From the NCBI RefSeq assembly GCF_024172185.1, contig NZ_JAMZEC010000001.1:9399001-9463000 (forward strand): a stretch of 64,000 nt of DNA, written 5' to 3'. Source of the stretch: Nonomuraea roseoviolacea subsp. carminata (GTDB taxonomy: Bacteria; Actinomycetota; Actinomycetes; Streptosporangiales; Streptosporangiaceae). The translations under genes were made by a program, and so were the position numbers. The notes beneath the pieces are model-generated. The model saw only the letters and a list, made by a program, of their open reading frames with translations. It had not been told where the DNA came from and did no database searches. Positions 11,866 to 19,962 of this stretch are shown piece by piece (positions within the stretch are counted from its first letter, which is position 1; each line of letters opens with the position of its first letter).

Positions 11866-13203
11866 TCAGACCGGCGACATCTCGCGGTCGGCCGGGGCCG
11901 TCGGCGGCTCCGGCTCCCGCTCGTCCTCGTCCAGCAGCGTGGCCTCGTCGAACGGGTCCTGCCCGGCCAGCACCTGAAGGGCCCGCTCCCGGTCGAACCC
12001 GCCCGTCCACGTGCCGACCAGCACGGTCGCCACGGCGTTGCCGGCGAAGTTGGTCAGCGCCCGCGCCTCGGACATGAACCGGTCGATGCCGACGATGAGG
12101 CCCACGCCGTCCACCAGCTCGGGGCGGTGCGACTGGAGCCCGCCCGCCAGCGTGGCGAGCCCGGCCCCGGTCACGCCGGCCGCGCCCTTGGAGGCGATCA
12201 TCATGAACAGCAGCAGCCCGAGCTGCTCGCCGAACCGCAGCGGGTCGCCCGTCGCCGAGGCGATGAACAGCGTGGCCATGGTCAGGTAGATGGCGGTGCC
12301 GTCGAGGTTGAAGGAGTAGCCGGTCGGCACGGTGATGCCGGCCACGGTACGGCTGACGCCCATGTGCTCCATCTTGGCGATGAGCCGCGGCAGCGCCGAC
12401 TCCGACGACGAGGTGGACAGGATGAGCAGGAACTCCCGGCCCAGGTAGCGCAGCAGCGACCACAGGTTGATCCGGGCGACCAGCCACAGCAGCGCGCCGA
12501 GCACGACGCCGACGAACAGGGCGCAGGTGAGGTAGAAGGCGGCCATGATGACGGCCAGGCTCTTGAGCGCGTCGACGCCGGTGGCGCCGACGACGGCCGC
12601 GATCGCGCCGAACGCGCCGACCGGCGCCGCCCACATGATCATGGCGAGGATGCGGAACACCAGCCGCTGGATGTGGCCGATGGCGGTGAGGACGGGCGCG
12701 CCCTTGGGCCCCATCGCCTGGAGGGCGAAGCCGGTGAGCAGCGCCACCAGCAGCGTCTGGAGCACCTGGCCCTCGGTGAACGCCGACACGAGCGTGGTCG
12801 GGATGATGCCGAGCAGGAAGTCGACGGTGTTCGTCGCCTCACCCTTCGCCGCCTCGGCCGCCGCCGCCTCCTTGGCCGCCGCGGTCAGGTGCAGGCCGCT
12901 GCCCGGGTCGATGAGGTTGCCGACGACCAGGCCGATGACCAGGGCTACAGTCGACATGACGAGGAAGTAACCGAGTGCGAGCCCGCCGACCTTGCCCACG
13001 CTGGCGGCCTTGGTGACGGAGCCGACGCCGAGCACGATCGTGCAGAAGATGATCGGGCTGATCATCATCTTGATCAGCGCCACGAATCCCGTGCCGAGCG
13101 GCTTGAGCGCCTGCCCCACGTCCGGCCAGACGAATCCGACCACGATTCCGGCCAGCACGGCCACGATGACGGCCAGGTAGAGGTAACGGGTGCGGTCACG
13201 CAT
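11866..13203 (-). CDS. dctA: C4-dicarboxylate:cation symporter DctA
   Basis: 445 residues, the usual length for the dicarboxylate/amino acid:cation symporter (DAACS) family. Eight helices plus two re-entrant loops are indicated by the serine-rich hairpin STSSSESALPRL and the conserved GYSFNLDGTAIYLTMATLF segment. It should import succinate, fumarate and malate with protons or sodium. The ATG is chosen over an upstream TTG because GGAGAG stands 7 bases before it. The C-terminal tail is acidic. It is divergent from a CitA/DcuS-like kinase and response regulator that very probably control it; a 16-base palindrome lies between them. Confidence 0.92.
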   Translation of the reverse strand: MRDRTRYLYLAVIVAVLAGIVVGFVWPDVGQALKPLGTGFVALIKMMISPIIFCTIVLGVGSVTKAASVGKVGGLALGYFLVMSTVALVIGLVVGNLIDPGSGLHLTAAAKEAAAAEAAKGEATNTVDFLLGIIPTTLVSAFTEGQVLQTLLVALLTGFALQAMGPKGAPVLTAIGHIQRLVFRILAMIMWAAPVGAFGAIAAVVGATGVDALKSLAVIMAAFYLTCALFVGVVLGALLWLVARINLWSLLRYLGREFLLILSTSSSESALPRLIAKMEHMGVSRTVAGITVPTGYSFNLDGTAIYLTMATLFIASATGDPLRFGEQLGLLLFMMIASKGAAGVTGAGLATLAGGLQSHRPELVDGVGLIVGIDRFMSEARALTNFAGNAVATVLVGTWTGGFDRERALQVLAGQDPFDEATLLDEDEREPEPPTAPADREMSPV

Positions 13204-13260
13204 GGGGGTGCTCTCCAAGGGTGTGGGCGACTGTTCTCACTGCGTGACTATGCGGCCGGT

Positions 13261-13276
13261 GGTGACGCACGTCACC
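13261..13276. promoter_or_regulatory. palindromic operator between dctA and its two-component system
   Basis: GGTGACGCACGTCACC has 7-base perfect arms around CA and sits in the 145-base divergent gap, 58 bases from dctA and 73 from the kinase start. The downstream response regulator is the obvious candidate binder; this is inference. Confidence 0.5.
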
Positions 13277-13348
13277 ATTGCGTAAGTTTCGTTCACCGGA
13301 TCCGCGACGGACGAGGTGGTGAGCGACGGAGAGGTCAGAGAGGTCCGG

Positions 13349-14842
13349 ATGCGACGGTGGAGCCTGGCGGGGCAGATGCTGCTCCTGCAACTGGTCGTGG
13401 TCGCCGTGGCCGTGGCGGGCGGCGCCGTGCTGGAGTCGGTGCTGGCGCGCGAGGTGGTCGGCGGGCAGGCCGCCGCCACCTCCCAGGCCGTGGCGCTCAG
13501 CGTCGCCGCCTCCCCCGACGTGCGGGCGGCCCTGGCCGGTCCGTCGCCGACGGCCAGGCTCCAGCCGTACGCCGAGCGGGTGCGCCTGGACACCGGCGTC
13601 GACTTCGTCACCATCATGAAGCCGGACGGCACCCGCTACACCCACCCCAACCCCGCCGAGATCGGGCGGCGCTTCCTCGGCCACACCGAGCAGGCGCTGC
13701 GGGGCCACGCGTTCACCGAGACCTACACCGGCACGCTCGGCCCGTCGGTGCGCGCCGTCGTGCCGGTCCGCGCCGGCGGCTCCGTCACGGCGCTGGTCAG
13801 CGTGGGCATCAAGGTGGAGAAGGTCAGCGCCAAGCTGTTCGTGATCCTGGTGTGGACGGGCCTCATCACGGCGCTCGCCCTCGGGCTGGGCGCCGGCGGC
13901 ACGTGGCTGGTGACCTCGCGGCTGCGCCGCCAGACCCACGGGCTGGGGCCGCTGGAGCTGAGCCGCATCCACGAGCACCACGACGCCGTCCTGCACGCCG
14001 TACGGGAGGGACTGCTGCTCGTCGGCCGGGACGGCACGCTGACGCTGTGCAACGACGCGGCCCGCCAGCTCCTGGACCTGCCGGAGGACGCCGAGGGGCG
14101 GCACGTGGCCGACCTCGGCCTGGCAGATGTGCTGACCACCCGGGAGGAGCGCGTCCACCTGGTCGGCGAGCGCGTGCTCGCGGTCAACAGCGCGGCCAGC
14201 CGCCTCGGCACGGTCGTCACCGTGCGCGACCACACGGAGCTGCAGGCGCTGGCCGGGCAGCTCGACGCCGAACGCGGCTTCGCCGAGGCGCTGCGCTCGG
14301 CGGCGCACGAGGCGGCCAACCGGCTGCACACCGTCATCACGCTGGTCGAGCTGGGCCGCACGGAGCAGGCGGTGGCGTTCGGCACGGCCGAGCTGCGGGC
14401 CGCGCAGGAGCTGACCGACCAGGTGATGGCCGCGGTGCGCGAGCCGGTGCTGGCGGCGCTGCTGCTCGGCAAGAGCGCGGAGGCGGCCGAGCGCGGCGTC
14501 GAGCTGGTCATCAGCCCGGACAGCGACCTCGACGACCTCGGCGTCGACCCGCGGGAGCTGGTCACCATCCTCGGCAACCTCATCGACAACGCCGTCGACG
14601 CGGCCTCGCGGGTGGAGGTGTGCCTGCGCGCCGACGAGGGCGAGCTGCTGATCCGGGTGGCCGACGACGGGCCGGGGCTCACCTCCGCCGAGGCGTTCCG
14701 GCGCGGCTGGACGACCAAGGGCGACGGCCACGGGCTGGGCCTGGCGCTGGTGGGCCAGGCGGTGCGGCGGCTGGGCGGCGCGATCGACGTGGAAGGCTCG
14801 GTGTTCACCGTGCGGCTCCCGGTGCCGGAGCGGGTCCGATGA
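13349..14842 (+). CDS. dctS: CitA/DcuS-family sensor histidine kinase for C4-dicarboxylates
   Basis: 497 residues. N-terminal membrane helix, an extracytoplasmic sCache/PDC domain (about 35-165) with the ligand-binding DGTRYTHPNPAEIG segment, second helix (about 170-195), PAS domain (about 215-300), then a short dimerisation region with H in AAHEAANRLHTVITL, N-box LGNLIDNAVDAA and GDGHGLGLALV. This is the DcuS/CitA/DctS plan. The ATG at 13349 is favoured by GAGAGG just upstream. It overlaps the response regulator by 4 bases (ATGA). Expected to sense C4-dicarboxylates or citrate and drive dctA transcription. Confidence 0.9.
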   Translation: MRRWSLAGQMLLLQLVVVAVAVAGGAVLESVLAREVVGGQAAATSQAVALSVAASPDVRAALAGPSPTARLQPYAERVRLDTGVDFVTIMKPDGTRYTHPNPAEIGRRFLGHTEQALRGHAFTETYTGTLGPSVRAVVPVRAGGSVTALVSVGIKVEKVSAKLFVILVWTGLITALALGLGAGGTWLVTSRLRRQTHGLGPLELSRIHEHHDAVLHAVREGLLLVGRDGTLTLCNDAARQLLDLPEDAEGRHVADLGLADVLTTREERVHLVGERVLAVNSAASRLGTVVTVRDHTELQALAGQLDAERGFAEALRSAAHEAANRLHTVITLVELGRTEQAVAFGTAELRAAQELTDQVMAAVREPVLAALLLGKSAEAAERGVELVISPDSDLDDLGVDPRELVTILGNLIDNAVDAASRVEVCLRADEGELLIRVADDGPGLTSAEAFRRGWTTKGDGHGLGLALVGQAVRRLGGAIDVEGSVFTVRLPVPERVR

Positions 14843-15507
14843 TCACCGTGCTGGTCGTCGAGGACGAGGAGATCACGGCCGAGGCCAACCGCATCTACGT
14901 GGAGCGGGTGCCCGGCTTCCGGGTGGCCGGGGTGGCCCGCTCGGGCGGCGACGCGCTGCGCTTCCTGCGGCACACGCCCGTGGACCTCATCCTGCTCGAC
15001 CTGTACCTGCCGGACATGCACGGGCTGGAGGTGTGCCGGGCCGCGCGGGCCGGCGGGCTGCTGTGCGACGTCATCGCGATCACCTCGGCGCGCGACCTGG
15101 CGATGGTGCGCTCGGCGGTGTCGCTGGGCGTCTCGCAGTACCTGCTCAAGCCGTTCGCGTTCGCGGCCCTGCGCGACAAGCTGACCCGCTACGCCGCCTT
15201 CCGCGGGGAGGCCGGCGAGATCGTCGGCCAGGGCGACGTGGACCGGGTGCTGGGCACGCTGCGCGGCACCGGCGGCGAGCTGCCCAAGGGCATGACGCAG
15301 GACACCCTCGACACGGTCGCGGCCGAGCTGCGCAGCCGGCCCGAGGGCGTGTCGGCGCAGGCCGTGGGGGCGGCGGCCGGGGTGTCGCGGGTGACGGCCC
15401 GCCGCTACCTGGAGTACCTGGTGGAGCGGGGCGTCGCGGTGCGCTTCCCCCAGTACGGCGGCGTCGGCCGTCCAGAGTTGCTCTACCGGATACCCACGGA
15501 ACGTTAA
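14839..15507 (+). CDS. dctR: CitB/DcuR-family response regulator
   Basis: 222 residues. Receiver domain 1-120 with acidic pocket E8/D9, phospho-acceptor D54 in ILLDLYLPDMHG, and K in LLKPF. The C-terminus (about 150-222) is a helix-turn-helix (GVSRVTARRYLEYL) typical of the CitB/DcuR class. Translationally coupled to the kinase by an ATGA overlap. Likely activator of dctA via the palindrome at 13261. Confidence 0.9.
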   Translation: MITVLVVEDEEITAEANRIYVERVPGFRVAGVARSGGDALRFLRHTPVDLILLDLYLPDMHGLEVCRAARAGGLLCDVIAITSARDLAMVRSAVSLGVSQYLLKPFAFAALRDKLTRYAAFRGEAGEIVGQGDVDRVLGTLRGTGGELPKGMTQDTLDTVAAELRSRPEGVSAQAVGAAAGVSRVTARRYLEYLVERGVAVRFPQYGGVGRPELLYRIPTER

Positions 15508-15578
15508 TGGCGCTGACGCTGGTCGTTCAATCCGGGCCTCTAGCTTCTGGGTGCATCCCACAGCACTGAGGAGACACC

Positions 15579-17699
15579 TTGCGAGTCCTGGCCGTAGTTC
15601 CCGCCCGCGGAGGTTCGGCGGGCGTCCCCCTGAAGAACCTCGCCACGGTCGGCGGGGTGCCGCTGGTGGCCCGCGCGGTGCGCGCCTGCCTGCGCGCCGA
15701 CCTGATCGACCAGGTCGTGGTCAGCACCGACCACGCCGGCATCGCGGAGACCGCCAGGCAGGCGGGGGCGCTCGTGGTGGACCGCCCGGAGGAGCTGAGC
15801 GGCGCCACCGCCTCCAGCGAGTCGGCGGTGCTGCACGCGCTGGACGCGCTCGGCGAGGACCCCGAGGTGGTCGTGCTCGTGCAGTGCACCAGCGCCTTCA
15901 TCGACCCGGCCGACCTGTCCGCCGCCGTGCGGCGGGTCCTCGACGGCGAGGCCGACTCGGTCGTGTCGGGGCTGCCGACGCACGAGTTCCTGTGGACGGC
16001 CGCCGGCGCCGGCGTCAACCACGACCCGGCGGTACGTCCGCGCCGGCAGGACCGCGAGCCGCAGTTCCGCGAGAACGGCGCCTTCTACGCCATGCGCACC
16101 GCCGGTCTGCGCGAGCACGGCCACCGCTTCTTCGGCACCGTCGGCGTCCAGCCCGTCCCGGCCCGGCACGGCATCGAGATCGACGACCCCGAGGACCTGG
16201 AGCTGGTCCGGGCGCTCGCCCCGTTCGTGGACCAGCCGGAGCCGATCGACGTCGACGCCGTCATCACCGACTTCGACGGCGTCCACACCGACGACCGGGC
16301 CTACGTCGACTCCGAGGGCCGCGAGATGGTCCTCGTCAGCCGCTCCGACGGCATGGGCGTCTCGCTGCTGCGCAGGGCCGGGGTGAAGGTGCTCGTCATG
16401 TCCACCGAGCACAACCCGGTCGTCGCCGCGCGGGCGCGCAAGCTCGGCGTGCCCGTCCTGCAGGGGCTCGCCGACAAGCGGACCGTGCTGCGCGACTGGC
16501 TGGCCATCGAGGGCCTCGACCCGGCCCGCGTCGCCTACGTCGGCAACGACGTCAACGACCTCGGCCCGATGGGCGAGGTGGGCTGGCCCGTGGCGGTGCC
16601 GGACGCCAACCCGAAGGTGCGGGCCGCCGCCCGCGTCGTGCTGACCCGCGTCGGCGGGGCCGGCGCGGTGCGCGAGCTGTGCGACCGGGTGCTGGCCGCC
16701 CGCCCCGCCCCGGCGCCGGCCGCGCCCGTGGCCCCGCTGGTGCCGGGCACGCCCGCCCCCTCCGCCGCGCCCACCCTGTCCTCCGCGGCCCCCGGCGGGC
16801 CCGTCCAGGCGCGGCCCAGGACCGCCCCGGCGCCGGTCGCCATCGGTGACGTGCTCGTCGGCGACGGCATGCCGGTGTACGTGATCGGCGAGATCGGCAT
16901 CAACCACAACGGCGACCTCGACATCGCCCGCCGCCTCATCGACGTCGCGGCCGACGCGGGGTGCCAGGCCGTCAAGTTCCAGAAGCGCACCCCCGCGATC
17001 TGCGTGCCCGAGGAGCAGAGGGGCCAGATCCGGCAGACGCCGTGGGGCGAGATGACGTACCTGGAGTACAAGGAGCGCACCGAGTTCGGCCTCGACGAGT
17101 ACCGGCAGATCGCCAAGTACTGCGACGAGCGCGGCCTGCACTGGTTCGCCTCGCCGTGGGACGTGCCCTCCGTGGAGTTCCTGGAGGAGATGGACGTCCT
17201 GGTGCACAAGGTGGCCTCGGCCGGCGTCGCCGACCACGAGCTGCTGCGCGCCCTGGCCGCCACCGGCAAACCGGTCATCCTGTCCACGGGCATGTCGACG
17301 CTGACCGAGATCGACAAGGCCGTCGAGATCCTCGGCACCAGCAAGCTGATCATGATGCACGCCACCTCCACGTACCCGCTGCCGCCGGAGGAGGCGAACC
17401 TGCGCACGATCACCACGCTCAAGGACCGCTACGGCGTGCCGGTCGGCTACTCCGGTCACGAGCGCGGGCTGCAGATCTCGCTGGCCGCCGTCACGCTCGG
17501 CGCGGTGTGCGTGGAGCGGCACATCACGCTCGACCGCACCATGTGGGGCTCCGACCACGCCGCCTCGCTGGAGCCGGCCGGGCTGGAGCACCTGGTGCGC
17601 GACATCCGGATCATCGAGCAGGCCATGGGCGACGGCGTCAAGCGGGTCTTCCCCGGCGAGGAGGCCCCGAAGGCCCGCCTGCGCCGCGTCACCGCCTGA
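15579..17699 (+). CDS. trifunctional nonulosonate protein: CMP-nonulosonate synthetase, HAD 9-phosphatase, nonulosonate (9-phosphate) synthase
   Basis: 706 residues with three enzymes in one chain. Residues 1-215 are a NeuA-type cytidylyltransferase (VVPARGGSAGVPLKN; QCTSAF). Residues 225-385 are a KdsC-like HAD phosphatase with D231/D233 (DFDGVHTDD), a lysine (ADKRTVL) and YVGNDVND. A Pro/Ala linker (about 388-425) leads to a NeuB TIM barrel (about 430-706): IGEIGINHNGD, KFQKRTP, GYSGHE, VERHITLDR. The chain stops about 60 residues short of usual NeuB proteins, so the C-terminal SAF (antifreeze-like) domain is absent. The HAD part suggests a 9-phosphate route (Kdn- or Neu5Ac-9-phosphate) ending in the CMP sugar. 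One conserved lysine of the NeuA signature (GSK) is alanine here. TTG start with GAGGAG upstream. The GT2 gene follows after 32 bases. Confidence 0.88.
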   Translation: MRVLAVVPARGGSAGVPLKNLATVGGVPLVARAVRACLRADLIDQVVVSTDHAGIAETARQAGALVVDRPEELSGATASSESAVLHALDALGEDPEVVVLVQCTSAFIDPADLSAAVRRVLDGEADSVVSGLPTHEFLWTAAGAGVNHDPAVRPRRQDREPQFRENGAFYAMRTAGLREHGHRFFGTVGVQPVPARHGIEIDDPEDLELVRALAPFVDQPEPIDVDAVITDFDGVHTDDRAYVDSEGREMVLVSRSDGMGVSLLRRAGVKVLVMSTEHNPVVAARARKLGVPVLQGLADKRTVLRDWLAIEGLDPARVAYVGNDVNDLGPMGEVGWPVAVPDANPKVRAAARVVLTRVGGAGAVRELCDRVLAARPAPAPAAPVAPLVPGTPAPSAAPTLSSAAPGGPVQARPRTAPAPVAIGDVLVGDGMPVYVIGEIGINHNGDLDIARRLIDVAADAGCQAVKFQKRTPAICVPEEQRGQIRQTPWGEMTYLEYKERTEFGLDEYRQIAKYCDERGLHWFASPWDVPSVEFLEEMDVLVHKVASAGVADHELLRALAATGKPVILSTGMSTLTEIDKAVEILGTSKLIMMHATSTYPLPPEEANLRTITTLKDRYGVPVGYSGHERGLQISLAAVTLGAVCVERHITLDRTMWGSDHAASLEPAGLEHLVRDIRIIEQAMGDGVKRVFPGEEAPKARLRRVTA

Positions 17700-17731: not shown

Positions 17732-18712
17732 TTGATCACTCTCTCGGTCGTCGTGCCGGTGCGGGACGGCGAGCGCTTCATCGCCGACGCGCTCGCCTCC
17801 CTGCGCCGCAACGCCCGGCGCGACTTCGAGTTCATCGTGGTGGACGACGGGTCGGTGGACGCCACCGCCGACGTCGTCGAGGACTTCCGCGGCGACCTGC
17901 CCGGCCTGTCCGTGATCCGCAACCCCGTGCCGCTGGGGCTCGCGGACGCGCGCAACGCCGGGCTGTCGGCCGCGTCGGGCCGCTACGTCACGTTCATGGA
18001 CGGCGACGACTGGCTCGCCCCTGGCTACCTGGACCAGCTCGTCGCGGCGATCGACGGGCTCGGCTGCGACTTCGTGCGGGCCGACCACGTCCAGGCCGAG
18101 GGCCGCAAACGGGTCGTGCACCGCGCTCCGCTGGCGCGGCGGGGCGTGGTGCTCGATCCCAGGAGCGCGATCCTGCCCGCGAACGTGCGCACCATGGTCG
18201 ACTACCCGTACGCGTGGGCCGGGGTCTACCGCCGCTCGCTGCGGGACCTGCTGCACTTCCCCGGGTCGCTGCACACCGCCGAGGACCGGCCGTGGATCTG
18301 GCGGCTGCACCGCGAGGCGGCCACGTTCGCCGTGGTGTCGATCGCGGGCGTCTTCTACCGGCGGCAGGTGACGGGGTCGCTGACGCAGGTCGGCGACGAG
18401 CGGCAACTGCACTTCTTCGACGCCTTCGAGCTGGTCTTCAAGGACCTGGAGGAGGAGTTCCTGCCCAAGGCGGTGCGCAACTTCTGCGCGCTGCTCGCCC
18501 ACCACCTGGAGCTGGCCGGCCGGTTCACGCCGCGGCTGCGGGCCCGCTTCGAGGAGCGCGGCGCGCAGGCGGTGCGGGCGCTGCCCGCCGGCCTGGTCGT
18601 GGACGCGGTCTCGCGGATGTCGCTCCAGCGGGAGACGGCGCTGCGGGCGCTGCTGCCGGACCTGCCCCCCAGCCCCCTCGTCCGGCCACGCCGGGATCGG
18701 GAGGATTCATGA
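17732..18712 (+). CDS. family 2 glycosyltransferase
   Basis: 326 residues. GT-A fold start VVVPVRDGERFIADALASL, nucleotide-binding VVDDGSVDAT, DXD-type motif FMDGDDWLAPGY, and acceptor-side TAEDRPWIWRLHRE. Cytoplasmic, no membrane helix. It sits between the trifunctional nonulosonate gene and the polysialyltransferase-family gene and overlaps the latter by 4 bases (ATGA), so it should add a sugar to the same surface polymer. The TTG start is chosen for AAGGAAAG just upstream. Confidence 0.88.
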   Translation: MITLSVVVPVRDGERFIADALASLRRNARRDFEFIVVDDGSVDATADVVEDFRGDLPGLSVIRNPVPLGLADARNAGLSAASGRYVTFMDGDDWLAPGYLDQLVAAIDGLGCDFVRADHVQAEGRKRVVHRAPLARRGVVLDPRSAILPANVRTMVDYPYAWAGVYRRSLRDLLHFPGSLHTAEDRPWIWRLHREAATFAVVSIAGVFYRRQVTGSLTQVGDERQLHFFDAFELVFKDLEEEFLPKAVRNFCALLAHHLELAGRFTPRLRARFEERGAQAVRALPAGLVVDAVSRMSLQRETALRALLPDLPPSPLVRPRRDREDS

Positions 18713-19962
18713 CGACGGTCTGCTACGCCTCGACGCTGTTCGGGGCCATGTCGCTGGCGGCCGCCATCGACGCCGGCCACATCGGAGGCGGCGGCTCCGG
18801 CGACGGCCGCCGGGTGCTCATCGTGTCGACGAACGCGGCGATCCCGGAGATCGCCGTGCCGCTGGACCGGGCGCCCGGCTTCGCCGCGCTGCGCTCCCGC
18901 TTCGACGAGATCCACTCCTGGAACGACCTCATCGCGCCGCTGCACCCGTCGGACTGGAAGGCCCGGGTGATCGAGGTGCCGATGATGGAGCGGCTGATCC
19001 GCGCCCATCTGGGGCTCGGCGAGGTGGACGAGCTGGTGCTGGAGTCGATCGCGGTGGCGCCGGCCCGGACGATCGCCGGGCTGGTGCGCGACTGCCCGAT
19101 CACCGTCTACTCCGACGGGCTGATGAGCTACGGCCCGACCCGCGACCCGCTGCCGGCCGACATCTTCCGCCGGATCACCCGCCTGCTCCACCTGGACCTG
19201 GTGCCGGGGCTGGAGCCGCTGCTGCTGAGCGAGTACGGGGTGCCCGCCGAGGTGCTGCCGGACGCGGCGTTCCTGTCGGTGGTGCGGGAGGTGACGGCCA
19301 CCGCGCCCGACATGATGGACGCCCGGGCGATGATCCTCGGGCAGTACCTGTCGGCGCTCGACATCGTCACGCCCGAGGAGGAGGCGGCGCTGCACGAGGC
19401 GATGCTGCGCGCGCTGGCCGCCCGGGGCCACGAGACCGTGGTGTTCAAGCCGCACCCGTCGGCGGGCCGGGCCCACGCCCGGCTGCTGCGCCCGGCGGCC
19501 GAGCGGCTCGGGGTGCGGCTGGTGGTGGCCGACGAGAGCACCCCGGCCGAGGCGTTCTTCGCGGCGCTGCGGCCGGAGCTGGTCGCCGGCTGCTTCTCGA
19601 CCGGGCTGGTCACGGCGCAGCGGTACTTCAGCCTGCCGGTCGCCTCGTACGGCACGGGCCTGGTGCTTGACCGGCTGGCCCCGTACGAGAACAGCAACCG
19701 CGTGCCGGTCACGCTCGTGGACGCGCTGCTGCCCCGGCTGTCGGACGACGGCTCGGCGACGGCGCCCCCGGCCGTGGACCTGCCAGCGCTGGTGCGGGCG
19801 GTGGGCTACTGCATGCAGGCCGAGGCGTACCCGGAACTGCGGCCGTCGGCGATGACGTTCGACCCGCGCTACTTCAAGCGCAAGCGGCTGGAGACGCTGG
19901 GGCTGGCCGGGCGGCCGACGGCCCTGGCCCGGCTGCGCCGCAAACTCGGCGCCACCCGCTGA
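18709..19962 (+). CDS. alpha-2,8-polysialyltransferase family protein (PF07388-type)
   Basis: 417 residues. Features of bacterial GT-B sialyltransferases are visible: an acidic motif (VYSDGLMSYG), the HP motif in VFKPHPSAGR and the Ser/Thr-rich motif CFSTGLVTA. The ATG follows GGGAGG and overlaps the GT2 stop. Family members transfer CMP-activated sialic acid or related nonulosonic acids; with the CMP-nonulosonate protein two genes upstream this gene likely polymerises or adds that sugar on a cell-surface glycan. Actinomycetes are known to make Kdn-containing teichulosonic acids, a plausible product. Confidence 0.85.
   Translation: MTTVCYASTLFGAMSLAAAIDAGHIGGGGSGDGRRVLIVSTNAAIPEIAVPLDRAPGFAALRSRFDEIHSWNDLIAPLHPSDWKARVIEVPMMERLIRAHLGLGEVDELVLESIAVAPARTIAGLVRDCPITVYSDGLMSYGPTRDPLPADIFRRITRLLHLDLVPGLEPLLLSEYGVPAEVLPDAAFLSVVREVTATAPDMMDARAMILGQYLSALDIVTPEEEAALHEAMLRALAARGHETVVFKPHPSAGRAHARLLRPAAERLGVRLVVADESTPAEAFFAALRPELVAGCFSTGLVTAQRYFSLPVASYGTGLVLDRLAPYENSNRVPVTLVDALLPRLSDDGSATAPPAVDLPALVRAVGYCMQAEAYPELRPSAMTFDPRYFKRKRLETLGLAGRPTALARLRRKLGATR

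Follow-up and report, generated by a model that had tools for sequence, protein, structure and literature searches.

A conserved NeuA-HAD-NeuB protein without a SAF domain as a likely CMP-Kdn enzyme of Actinomycetota

The window analyzed here is a stretch of 64,000 nucleotides from Nonomuraea roseoviolacea subsp. carminata. On its forward strand lies a gene in which a NeuA-like CMP-nonulosonate synthetase, a HAD phosphatase and a NeuB synthase barrel are joined in a single open frame, together with two transferase genes downstream. The features of the locus are as follows:

15579..17699, + strand: NeuA-HAD-NeuB fusion gene, an open frame of 706 aa (~75 kDa) with a TTG start
15568..15573, + strand: Shine-Dalgarno-like GAGGAG 5' of the TTG start, found by sequence inspection
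15579..16223, + strand: NeuA-like CMP-nonulosonate synthetase domain, residues 1-215 (PF02348, 82.3 bits)
15618..15620, + strand: Ala14 at the Lys position of the GSK signature, from the alignment of related NeuA domains
16239..16703, + strand: KdsC-like HAD phosphatase domain, residues 221-375 (match to 3mmz, E 1.3e-48; motif columns)
16704..16832, + strand: Pro/Ala-rich linker, residues 376-418 (composition; pLDDT <50 at 378-414)
16833..17696, + strand: NeuB (beta/alpha)8 barrel without SAF, residues 419-706 (PF03102, 279.3 bits)
16983..16988, + strand: Lys469-Arg470, invariant in SAF-less synthases, a proposed 6-phosphate site
17640..17687, + strand: conserved basic C-terminal tail, residues 688-703, at the position where SAF would be expected (conservation; low confidence in the full-length model)
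17732..18712, + strand: GT2 glycosyltransferase gene (PF00535, 107.8 bits)
18709..19962, + strand: polysialyltransferase-family gene (PF07388, 96.5 bits), overlapping the GT2 gene by 4 bases

An earlier note on this DNA had proposed a NeuA, a HAD and a NeuB domain in one chain without SAF, and an Ala in place of the Lys in the GSK signature of NeuA. The open frame, Pfam and phmmer bear out this architecture, and the alignment places Ala14 at the Lys position. In Pfam searches CTP_transf_3 matched residues 5-212 (82.3 bits, cut-off 22.6) and NeuB (PF03102) residues 453-688 (279.3 bits, gathering cut-off 22.1), while the HAD region was marginal (PF08282 scored 21.2 bits with a cut-off of 20.9, and PF00702 fell short of its own cut-off). 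With phmmer, residues 220-373 matched the HAD structure 3mmz, named as from Streptomyces avermitilis, with 169 bits (E 1.3e-48). No SAF match was obtained with Pfam at E 0.01 in the 706 residues, and the frame stops 18 residues past the end of the NeuB profile. The protein therefore falls outside the SAF-containing sialic acid synthases of the NANS/NeuB/PseI type, which have a C-terminal SAF domain with an active-site Arg. The equivalog model for N-acetylneuraminate synthase NeuB (TIGR03569) scored 269.1 bits against a cut-off of 399.65, although the missing SAF alone would lower this score. A TTG start is common among the relatives: with starts taken from matches, 26 compared genes begin with TTG in 21 cases, GTG in five and ATG in none.

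The architecture survey that the earlier note had suggested was carried out as a scan of public genomes, which yielded 584 relatives; the best 80 of these entered the comparison. The three domains lie in a single frame in 72 of these 80 loci, and because the whole arrangement is kept to this extent, chance is excluded. The remaining eight loci have NeuA-HAD and a separate neighboring NeuB gene (Thermobifida, Actinorugispora, four Promicromonospora, Glutamicibacter and another member of the Micrococcaceae). Between 0 and 14 residues follow NeuB in all 80 loci, which is too short for SAF. The linker of the 72 fusions is 14-63 residues long (median 22) and contains 41% Pro and Ala. In a class sample of 197 genomes, eight carry the triple fusion, namely seven fetched loci and the window's own. 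Many Actinomycetota share the triple chain in conserved form; it is not a peculiarity of one genome. A sequencing or gene-calling artefact could draw on the separate halves in eight of the 80 loci, but one open frame with a Pro/Ala linker of variable length recurs in 72 of the 80 public records, which leaves such an artefact a negligible probability. On the best tree (a quick tree of 90 rows) the fused or split state changes at least five times; with weak support for 25 of the 87 inner branches, this makes it likely, but does not show, that joining or splitting happened repeatedly. In all eight split loci both halves are in the same reading frame, probably because a single tblastn match served to rank the loci. 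Stop-codon readthrough in these eight was considered and rejected, as each NeuB begins at an ATG of its own, located shortly downstream. The gene set as such is known; for the triple fusion itself no published description was found in literature searches of open PMC papers.

Homologues of both transferase genes, with PF07388 at most 1.5 kb after GT2, occur in 69 of the 80 best loci, and one or both are missing from the stretch examined in the other 11. In 66 of the 69 loci GT2 starts no more than 1 kb downstream of NeuB; in the other three it lies 2-4 kb after NeuB (L036, L083) or 7 kb before it (L070). The operon was taken as three genes, because the two-component genes upstream are present in only 23 of the 80 loci and the tannase downstream in none. 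Within the window, positions 11866-15507 hold a gene of the dicarboxylate symporter family together with genes for a sensor kinase and a response regulator, again a combination seen in 23 of 80 loci; these genes are probably unrelated to the fusion operon.

In five loci (L090-L094) NeuA-HAD and a separate SAF-less NeuB were found beside GT2 and PF07388 homologues on the opposite strand, the latter with 51-56% (GT2) and 45-50% (PF07388) identity. The five are from genomes of one genus, probably Streptomyces. The NeuB of Streptomyces coelicolor is SCO4881 (PMC2367054), and SCO4873-SCO4882 have been termed teichulosonic acid genes controlled by PhoP (PMC13011467), teichulosonic acid being described as a polymer of galactose and Kdn (PMC11481543). 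Planobispora rosea genes matched to SCO4877-4882, including a sialic acid synthase, were reported to show expression like that of PhoP-activated genes and are labelled teichuronic acid genes in the same source (PMC8269224). Judged through the probable Streptomyces loci, the S. coelicolor region SCO4873-SCO4882 resembles the window in having NeuA-HAD, SAF-less NeuB, GT2 and PF07388 together, but there NeuA-HAD and NeuB are encoded by two genes, and the transferases are transcribed in the opposite direction. With respect to these four genes, which were the ones compared, the window carries the teichulosonic acid gene set, and the two-gene version of the arrangement belongs to the gene set already tied to the Streptomyces Kdn polymer. 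The Streptomyces-type gene set, the SCO4881 region and the presence of Kdn in teichulosonic acid together make Kdn the probable product. A PHO-box was not found within 160 bases before the fusion gene at up to 4 mismatches, a threshold at which the whole window contains 45 such sites. In several relatives (L031, L035, L036, L038, L043, L054 and L083) a recurring stretch starting GTTCAGC lies ~90-115 bases before the start; it is possibly a PhoP-type repeat and is absent before the window's gene.

The NeuA domain combines the CTP_transf_3 profile with Arg10 and Lys19 and lacks the Lys of GSK. Among 117 related domains R10, K19 and N20 are kept in 116, the remaining one showing a gap. Position 14 is Ala in 44 of them, Val in 35, Lys in 27 and Gln in six, so that Ala, Val or Gln stand at the GSK Lys position in 85 of the 117 domains. 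The Ala, which the earlier note had pointed out, is thus ordinary in this subfamily, and inactivity of NeuA through Ala14 was rejected on these grounds and since PpNeuA (9t4z), the nearest solved NeuA (E 1.3e-33), has Val at this position. We take PpNeuA, titled CMP-Kdn synthetase, to be the Prymnesium parvum enzyme. According to PMC6200933, the recombinant P. parvum CMP-Kdn synthetase made CMP-Kdn from Kdn and did not accept Neu5Ac, and the Kdn-9-P synthetase of the same species accepted Man-6-P and not ManNAc-6-P.

The HAD domain of the fusion carries D231, D233, K300 and G322-N-D-V-N-D327, that is the DxD, Lys and GNDxND motifs of a KdsC-type HAD. D231 and D324 are kept in 119 of 120 HAD domains, and D233, K300 and D327 in all 120; these are presumably the catalytic residues. 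If the domain were a relic without phosphatase activity, as is thought for the tail of vertebrate CMAS, the route would be phosphate-free. Its scores lie below the NCBIfam cut-offs for KdsC (TIGR01670, 90.0 against 106.95 bits) and for KDN-9-P phosphatase (NF058599, 87.4 against 180), and one genome has two SAF-less NeuA/NeuB pairs with no HAD; yet such a relic is very unlikely in view of the near-invariant motifs and of the Lys-Arg pair in the barrel, which accompanies HAD in most but not in all cases. All three domains are most probably active. In Rhizobium sp. 32-5/1 (L172 4870-6088) the HAD portion of NeuA-HAD falls into two reading frames, through a frameshift or a sequencing error.

To compare the barrels, 161 sequences were aligned, 124 without SAF (117 distinct) and 37 with SAF, some named loci recurring among the other genomes. 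Residues E438, K466, Q468, K544, S547, Y599, S625, H627, E646, H648 and D659 are kept in all 124 SAF-less barrels and match meningococcal E25, K53, Q55, K129, S132, Y186, S213, H215, E234, H236 and D247. Position 549, which aligns with meningococcal Glu134, carries Glu or Asp in all 37 SAF synthases and is never acidic in the 124 SAF-less barrels (Ser 103, Gly 11, Cys 5, Thr 3, Met 2), with Gly in the window's synthase. Lys469-Arg470 is present in every SAF-less barrel and in 3 of 37 SAF barrels; the corresponding counts are 124/124 against 1/37 for Trp527 and 124/124 against 3/37 for Gly626, and Trp656 occurs in 119 of the 124. The SAF enzymes with the Lys-Arg pair are L099, the only SAF synthase seen beside a HAD, L095 and L151. 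The latter two are second NeuB proteins in two probable Streptomyces-group genomes, with SAF and Lys-Arg and no HAD in the stretch, and could be SAF-type 9-phosphate synthases.

The meningococcal enzyme forms a dimer with swapped domains, in which the SAF residue Arg314 extends into the other active site; it is thought to place the N-acetyl group, and R314A is inactive (PMC6795526). An acceptor without an N-acetyl group would need no placement by Arg314, so the SAF domain could be dispensable. Three glutamates have been proposed to stabilize the intermediate (PMC7591256). Glu134 is presumably one of the three, and its replacement in the SAF-less barrels speaks against the CMP-Kdn reading given below. 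On our reading of the alignment, the SAF Arg and the carboxylate at 549 would belong to N-acetyl recognition and have been lost together, while Lys469-Arg470 would hold the 6-phosphate of the acceptor and go with the phosphatase. The missing SAF role has then probably been made unnecessary by the changed pocket and not been filled by another domain. The pocket changes shared by the SAF-less barrels rest on one or two events. More tentatively, these barrels may form a SAF-independent synthase class in which the SAF Arg and the Glu134 carboxylate are replaced by a 6-phosphate grip of Lys469-Arg470 and packing of Trp527 and Trp656, so that the acceptor could be read from the sequence, and whose route has been joined, perhaps more than once, in Actinomycetota; as part of the same tentative proposal, a one-chain CMP-Kdn route may pass its intermediates along.

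Predicted alone with AF2, the barrel reached a pLDDT of 87.7 and a pTM of 0.85. Its top structural match is 6ncs, a NeuB chain of Leptospira borgpetersenii (Z 35.2, rmsd 3.9, 274 aligned), and further matches are meningococcal NeuB (Z 34.1-34.4), NeuB relatives (28-32) and, at 11-18% identity, DAHP and KDO8P synthases (22-25), which are SAF-less barrels that take phosphosugars. 6ncs is likewise a barrel without SAF, although this is a solved chain and maybe not the full-length protein, but it has no Lys-Arg pair and an Asp at the Glu134 site; because it shows neither change, the coupling of SAF loss to the changed pocket is not universal. The full-length model has a pTM of 0.45 with low confidence in the linker and the last 23 residues, for which reason domain packing and any SAF stand-in are unreadable from it.

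The earlier note had named a separate SAF-containing synthase nearby as an alternative source of activity. None was found: apart from the fusion, the genome has a single full-length NeuB match (G000 C1:2481093-2482031; L002, L164), which has SAF and lies ~6.9 Mb away. It scores 430 bits with the PseI model (cut-off 340.25), lacks the Lys-Arg pair and adjoins a PseG-like gene (115.8 against 153.55) on the opposite strand; the locus is a probable pseudaminic acid route. A third, weak NeuB match was discarded as a DAHP synthase, and the other SAF match in the genome scores 26.1 bits. That the fused synthase receives a SAF from another protein, or is inactive with a separate synthase doing the work, would agree with the essential Arg314 of the meningococcal enzyme (PMC6795526) and with the existence of a second NeuB with SAF. 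However, the PseI model identifies this second NeuB as a pseudaminic acid synthase, and it lies 6.9 Mb off and has no Lys-Arg. The pocket residues do not vary among the 124 SAF-less sequences, and SAF-less NeuB beside HAD also occurs in Alphaproteobacteria and Methylomagnum, so that we consider this alternative distinctly unlikely.

The presence of SAF was also compared with that of a nearby phosphatase. The class sample of 197 genomes gave 65 full-length or partial NeuB matches, of which 62 loci were fetched. A HAD lies within 3 kb of 32 of the 34 SAF-less synthases (in L123 2 kb away on the opposite strand) and of none of the 28 SAF synthases, two of which were assigned SAF by tail length alone. 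Fourteen further barrels from a phylum sample comprise ten with SAF and without HAD, one with both, two without SAF and with HAD, and one with neither. Outside the phylum, the pairing of SAF-less NeuB and HAD is found in Azospirillum (NeuB of 280 aa, the next gene encoding a HAD of 192 bits behind a weak NeuA match of 25 bits), Sinorhizobium meliloti (NeuB 312 aa, NeuA-HAD 389 aa) and Methylomagnum (NeuB 301 aa, HAD 175 aa). SAF-less synthases without a nearby HAD are L132, L138, L102 and the 293-aa NeuB of Hymenobacter (L169), for which 8.8 kb were examined. L132 and L138 both come from one genome, G324; in each, NeuA is paired with a SAF-less NeuB and no HAD adjoins. On the tree SAF changes twice, with one change forced by the starred branches, and nearly all SAF-less/HAD cases fall into one clade. 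Because there are only two SAF changes and one or two pairs in a paired test, the association is strong in numbers and not independent; a statistical argument that HAD gain precedes SAF loss was dropped.

The chain is rather likely to be a three-activity CMP-Kdn enzyme, with the route mannose-6-P to Kdn-9-P to Kdn to CMP-Kdn, serving a wall polymer of the teichulosonic acid type. In this route the NeuB barrel would condense mannose-6-phosphate, an ordinary metabolite, with PEP to Kdn-9-phosphate, the HAD domain would remove the 9-phosphate and the NeuA domain would convert Kdn and CTP to CMP-Kdn, which the GT2 and PF07388 proteins would build into the cell-wall polymer. The synthase could work without SAF as its acceptor has no N-acetyl group to be held, the 6-phosphate being gripped instead, probably by Lys469-Arg470. 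The single-chain route through a 9-phosphate put forward by the earlier note is the best reading of the HAD motifs, the invariant K469-R470 and the lack of a NeuC above cut-off, and we regard passage through a 9-phosphate as highly likely; of the two acceptors that it had named, mannose-6-phosphate, leading to Kdn, is favored over ManNAc-6-phosphate. A search of the genome for NeuC gave no match above cut-off (two sub-threshold matches, 81.7 and 60.2 against 235.9 bits), which makes a supply of ManNAc unlikely.

Were the chain to make CMP-Neu5Ac from ManNAc-6-phosphate, it would hold the vertebrate-like route in one protein. The vertebrate Neu5Ac route also passes through a 9-phosphate, a route of this kind via a NeuB fusion has been proposed for Leptospira (PMC3438082), and the NeuB and NeuA families act on Neu5Ac too. 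Production of Neu5Ac is nevertheless unlikely given the absence of a NeuC above cut-off and of the SAF Arg, the Kdn in the Streptomyces polymer (PMC11481543) and the CMP-Kdn synthetase as nearest solved NeuA. The Kdn pathway of Bacteroides thetaiotaomicron and P. parvum likewise leads from Man-6-P over Kdn-9-P and Kdn to CMP-Kdn, but with separate proteins (PMC6200933). The Leptospira NeuB is comparable as a synthase fused to a further domain, a proposed phosphatase in a 9-phosphate route, but this extension is C-terminal and described as endonuclease-like, and no NeuA is mentioned in the chain (PMC3438082). The window's arrangement is genuine and conserved, a variant form of a gene set that is already known, and its value lies in the SAF-less pocket and the one-chain route. 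Vertebrate CMAS shares the NeuA-HAD order and the 9-phosphate route with the fusion, and NANS is a separate protein with SAF. If the CMP-Kdn reading is right, a single gene would lead from mannose-6-phosphate to CMP-Kdn and be useful for glycan synthesis, it would be clear when a sialic acid synthase can dispense with SAF, with named residues as targets for exchange, and a Kdn wall polymer would be predicted in many actinomycetes.

Two further loci were observed among the compared sequences. On pSymB of S. meliloti (L167 3983-9081) a SAF-less NeuB, NeuA-HAD and an annotated alpha-2,3-sialyltransferase lie together, a cluster that could make a Kdn-type surface sugar. L148 (1944-4286) encodes a NeuB of the SAF type that has a CBS match at its N-terminus and, following SAF, a xylose-isomerase-like barrel (PF01261 AP_endonuc_2, 68.6 bits). 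This extension resembles the isomerase-like one reported for Serratia NeuB (PMC9000132), and the 'endonuclease-like phosphatase' of Leptospira may be this extension too rather than a phosphatase.
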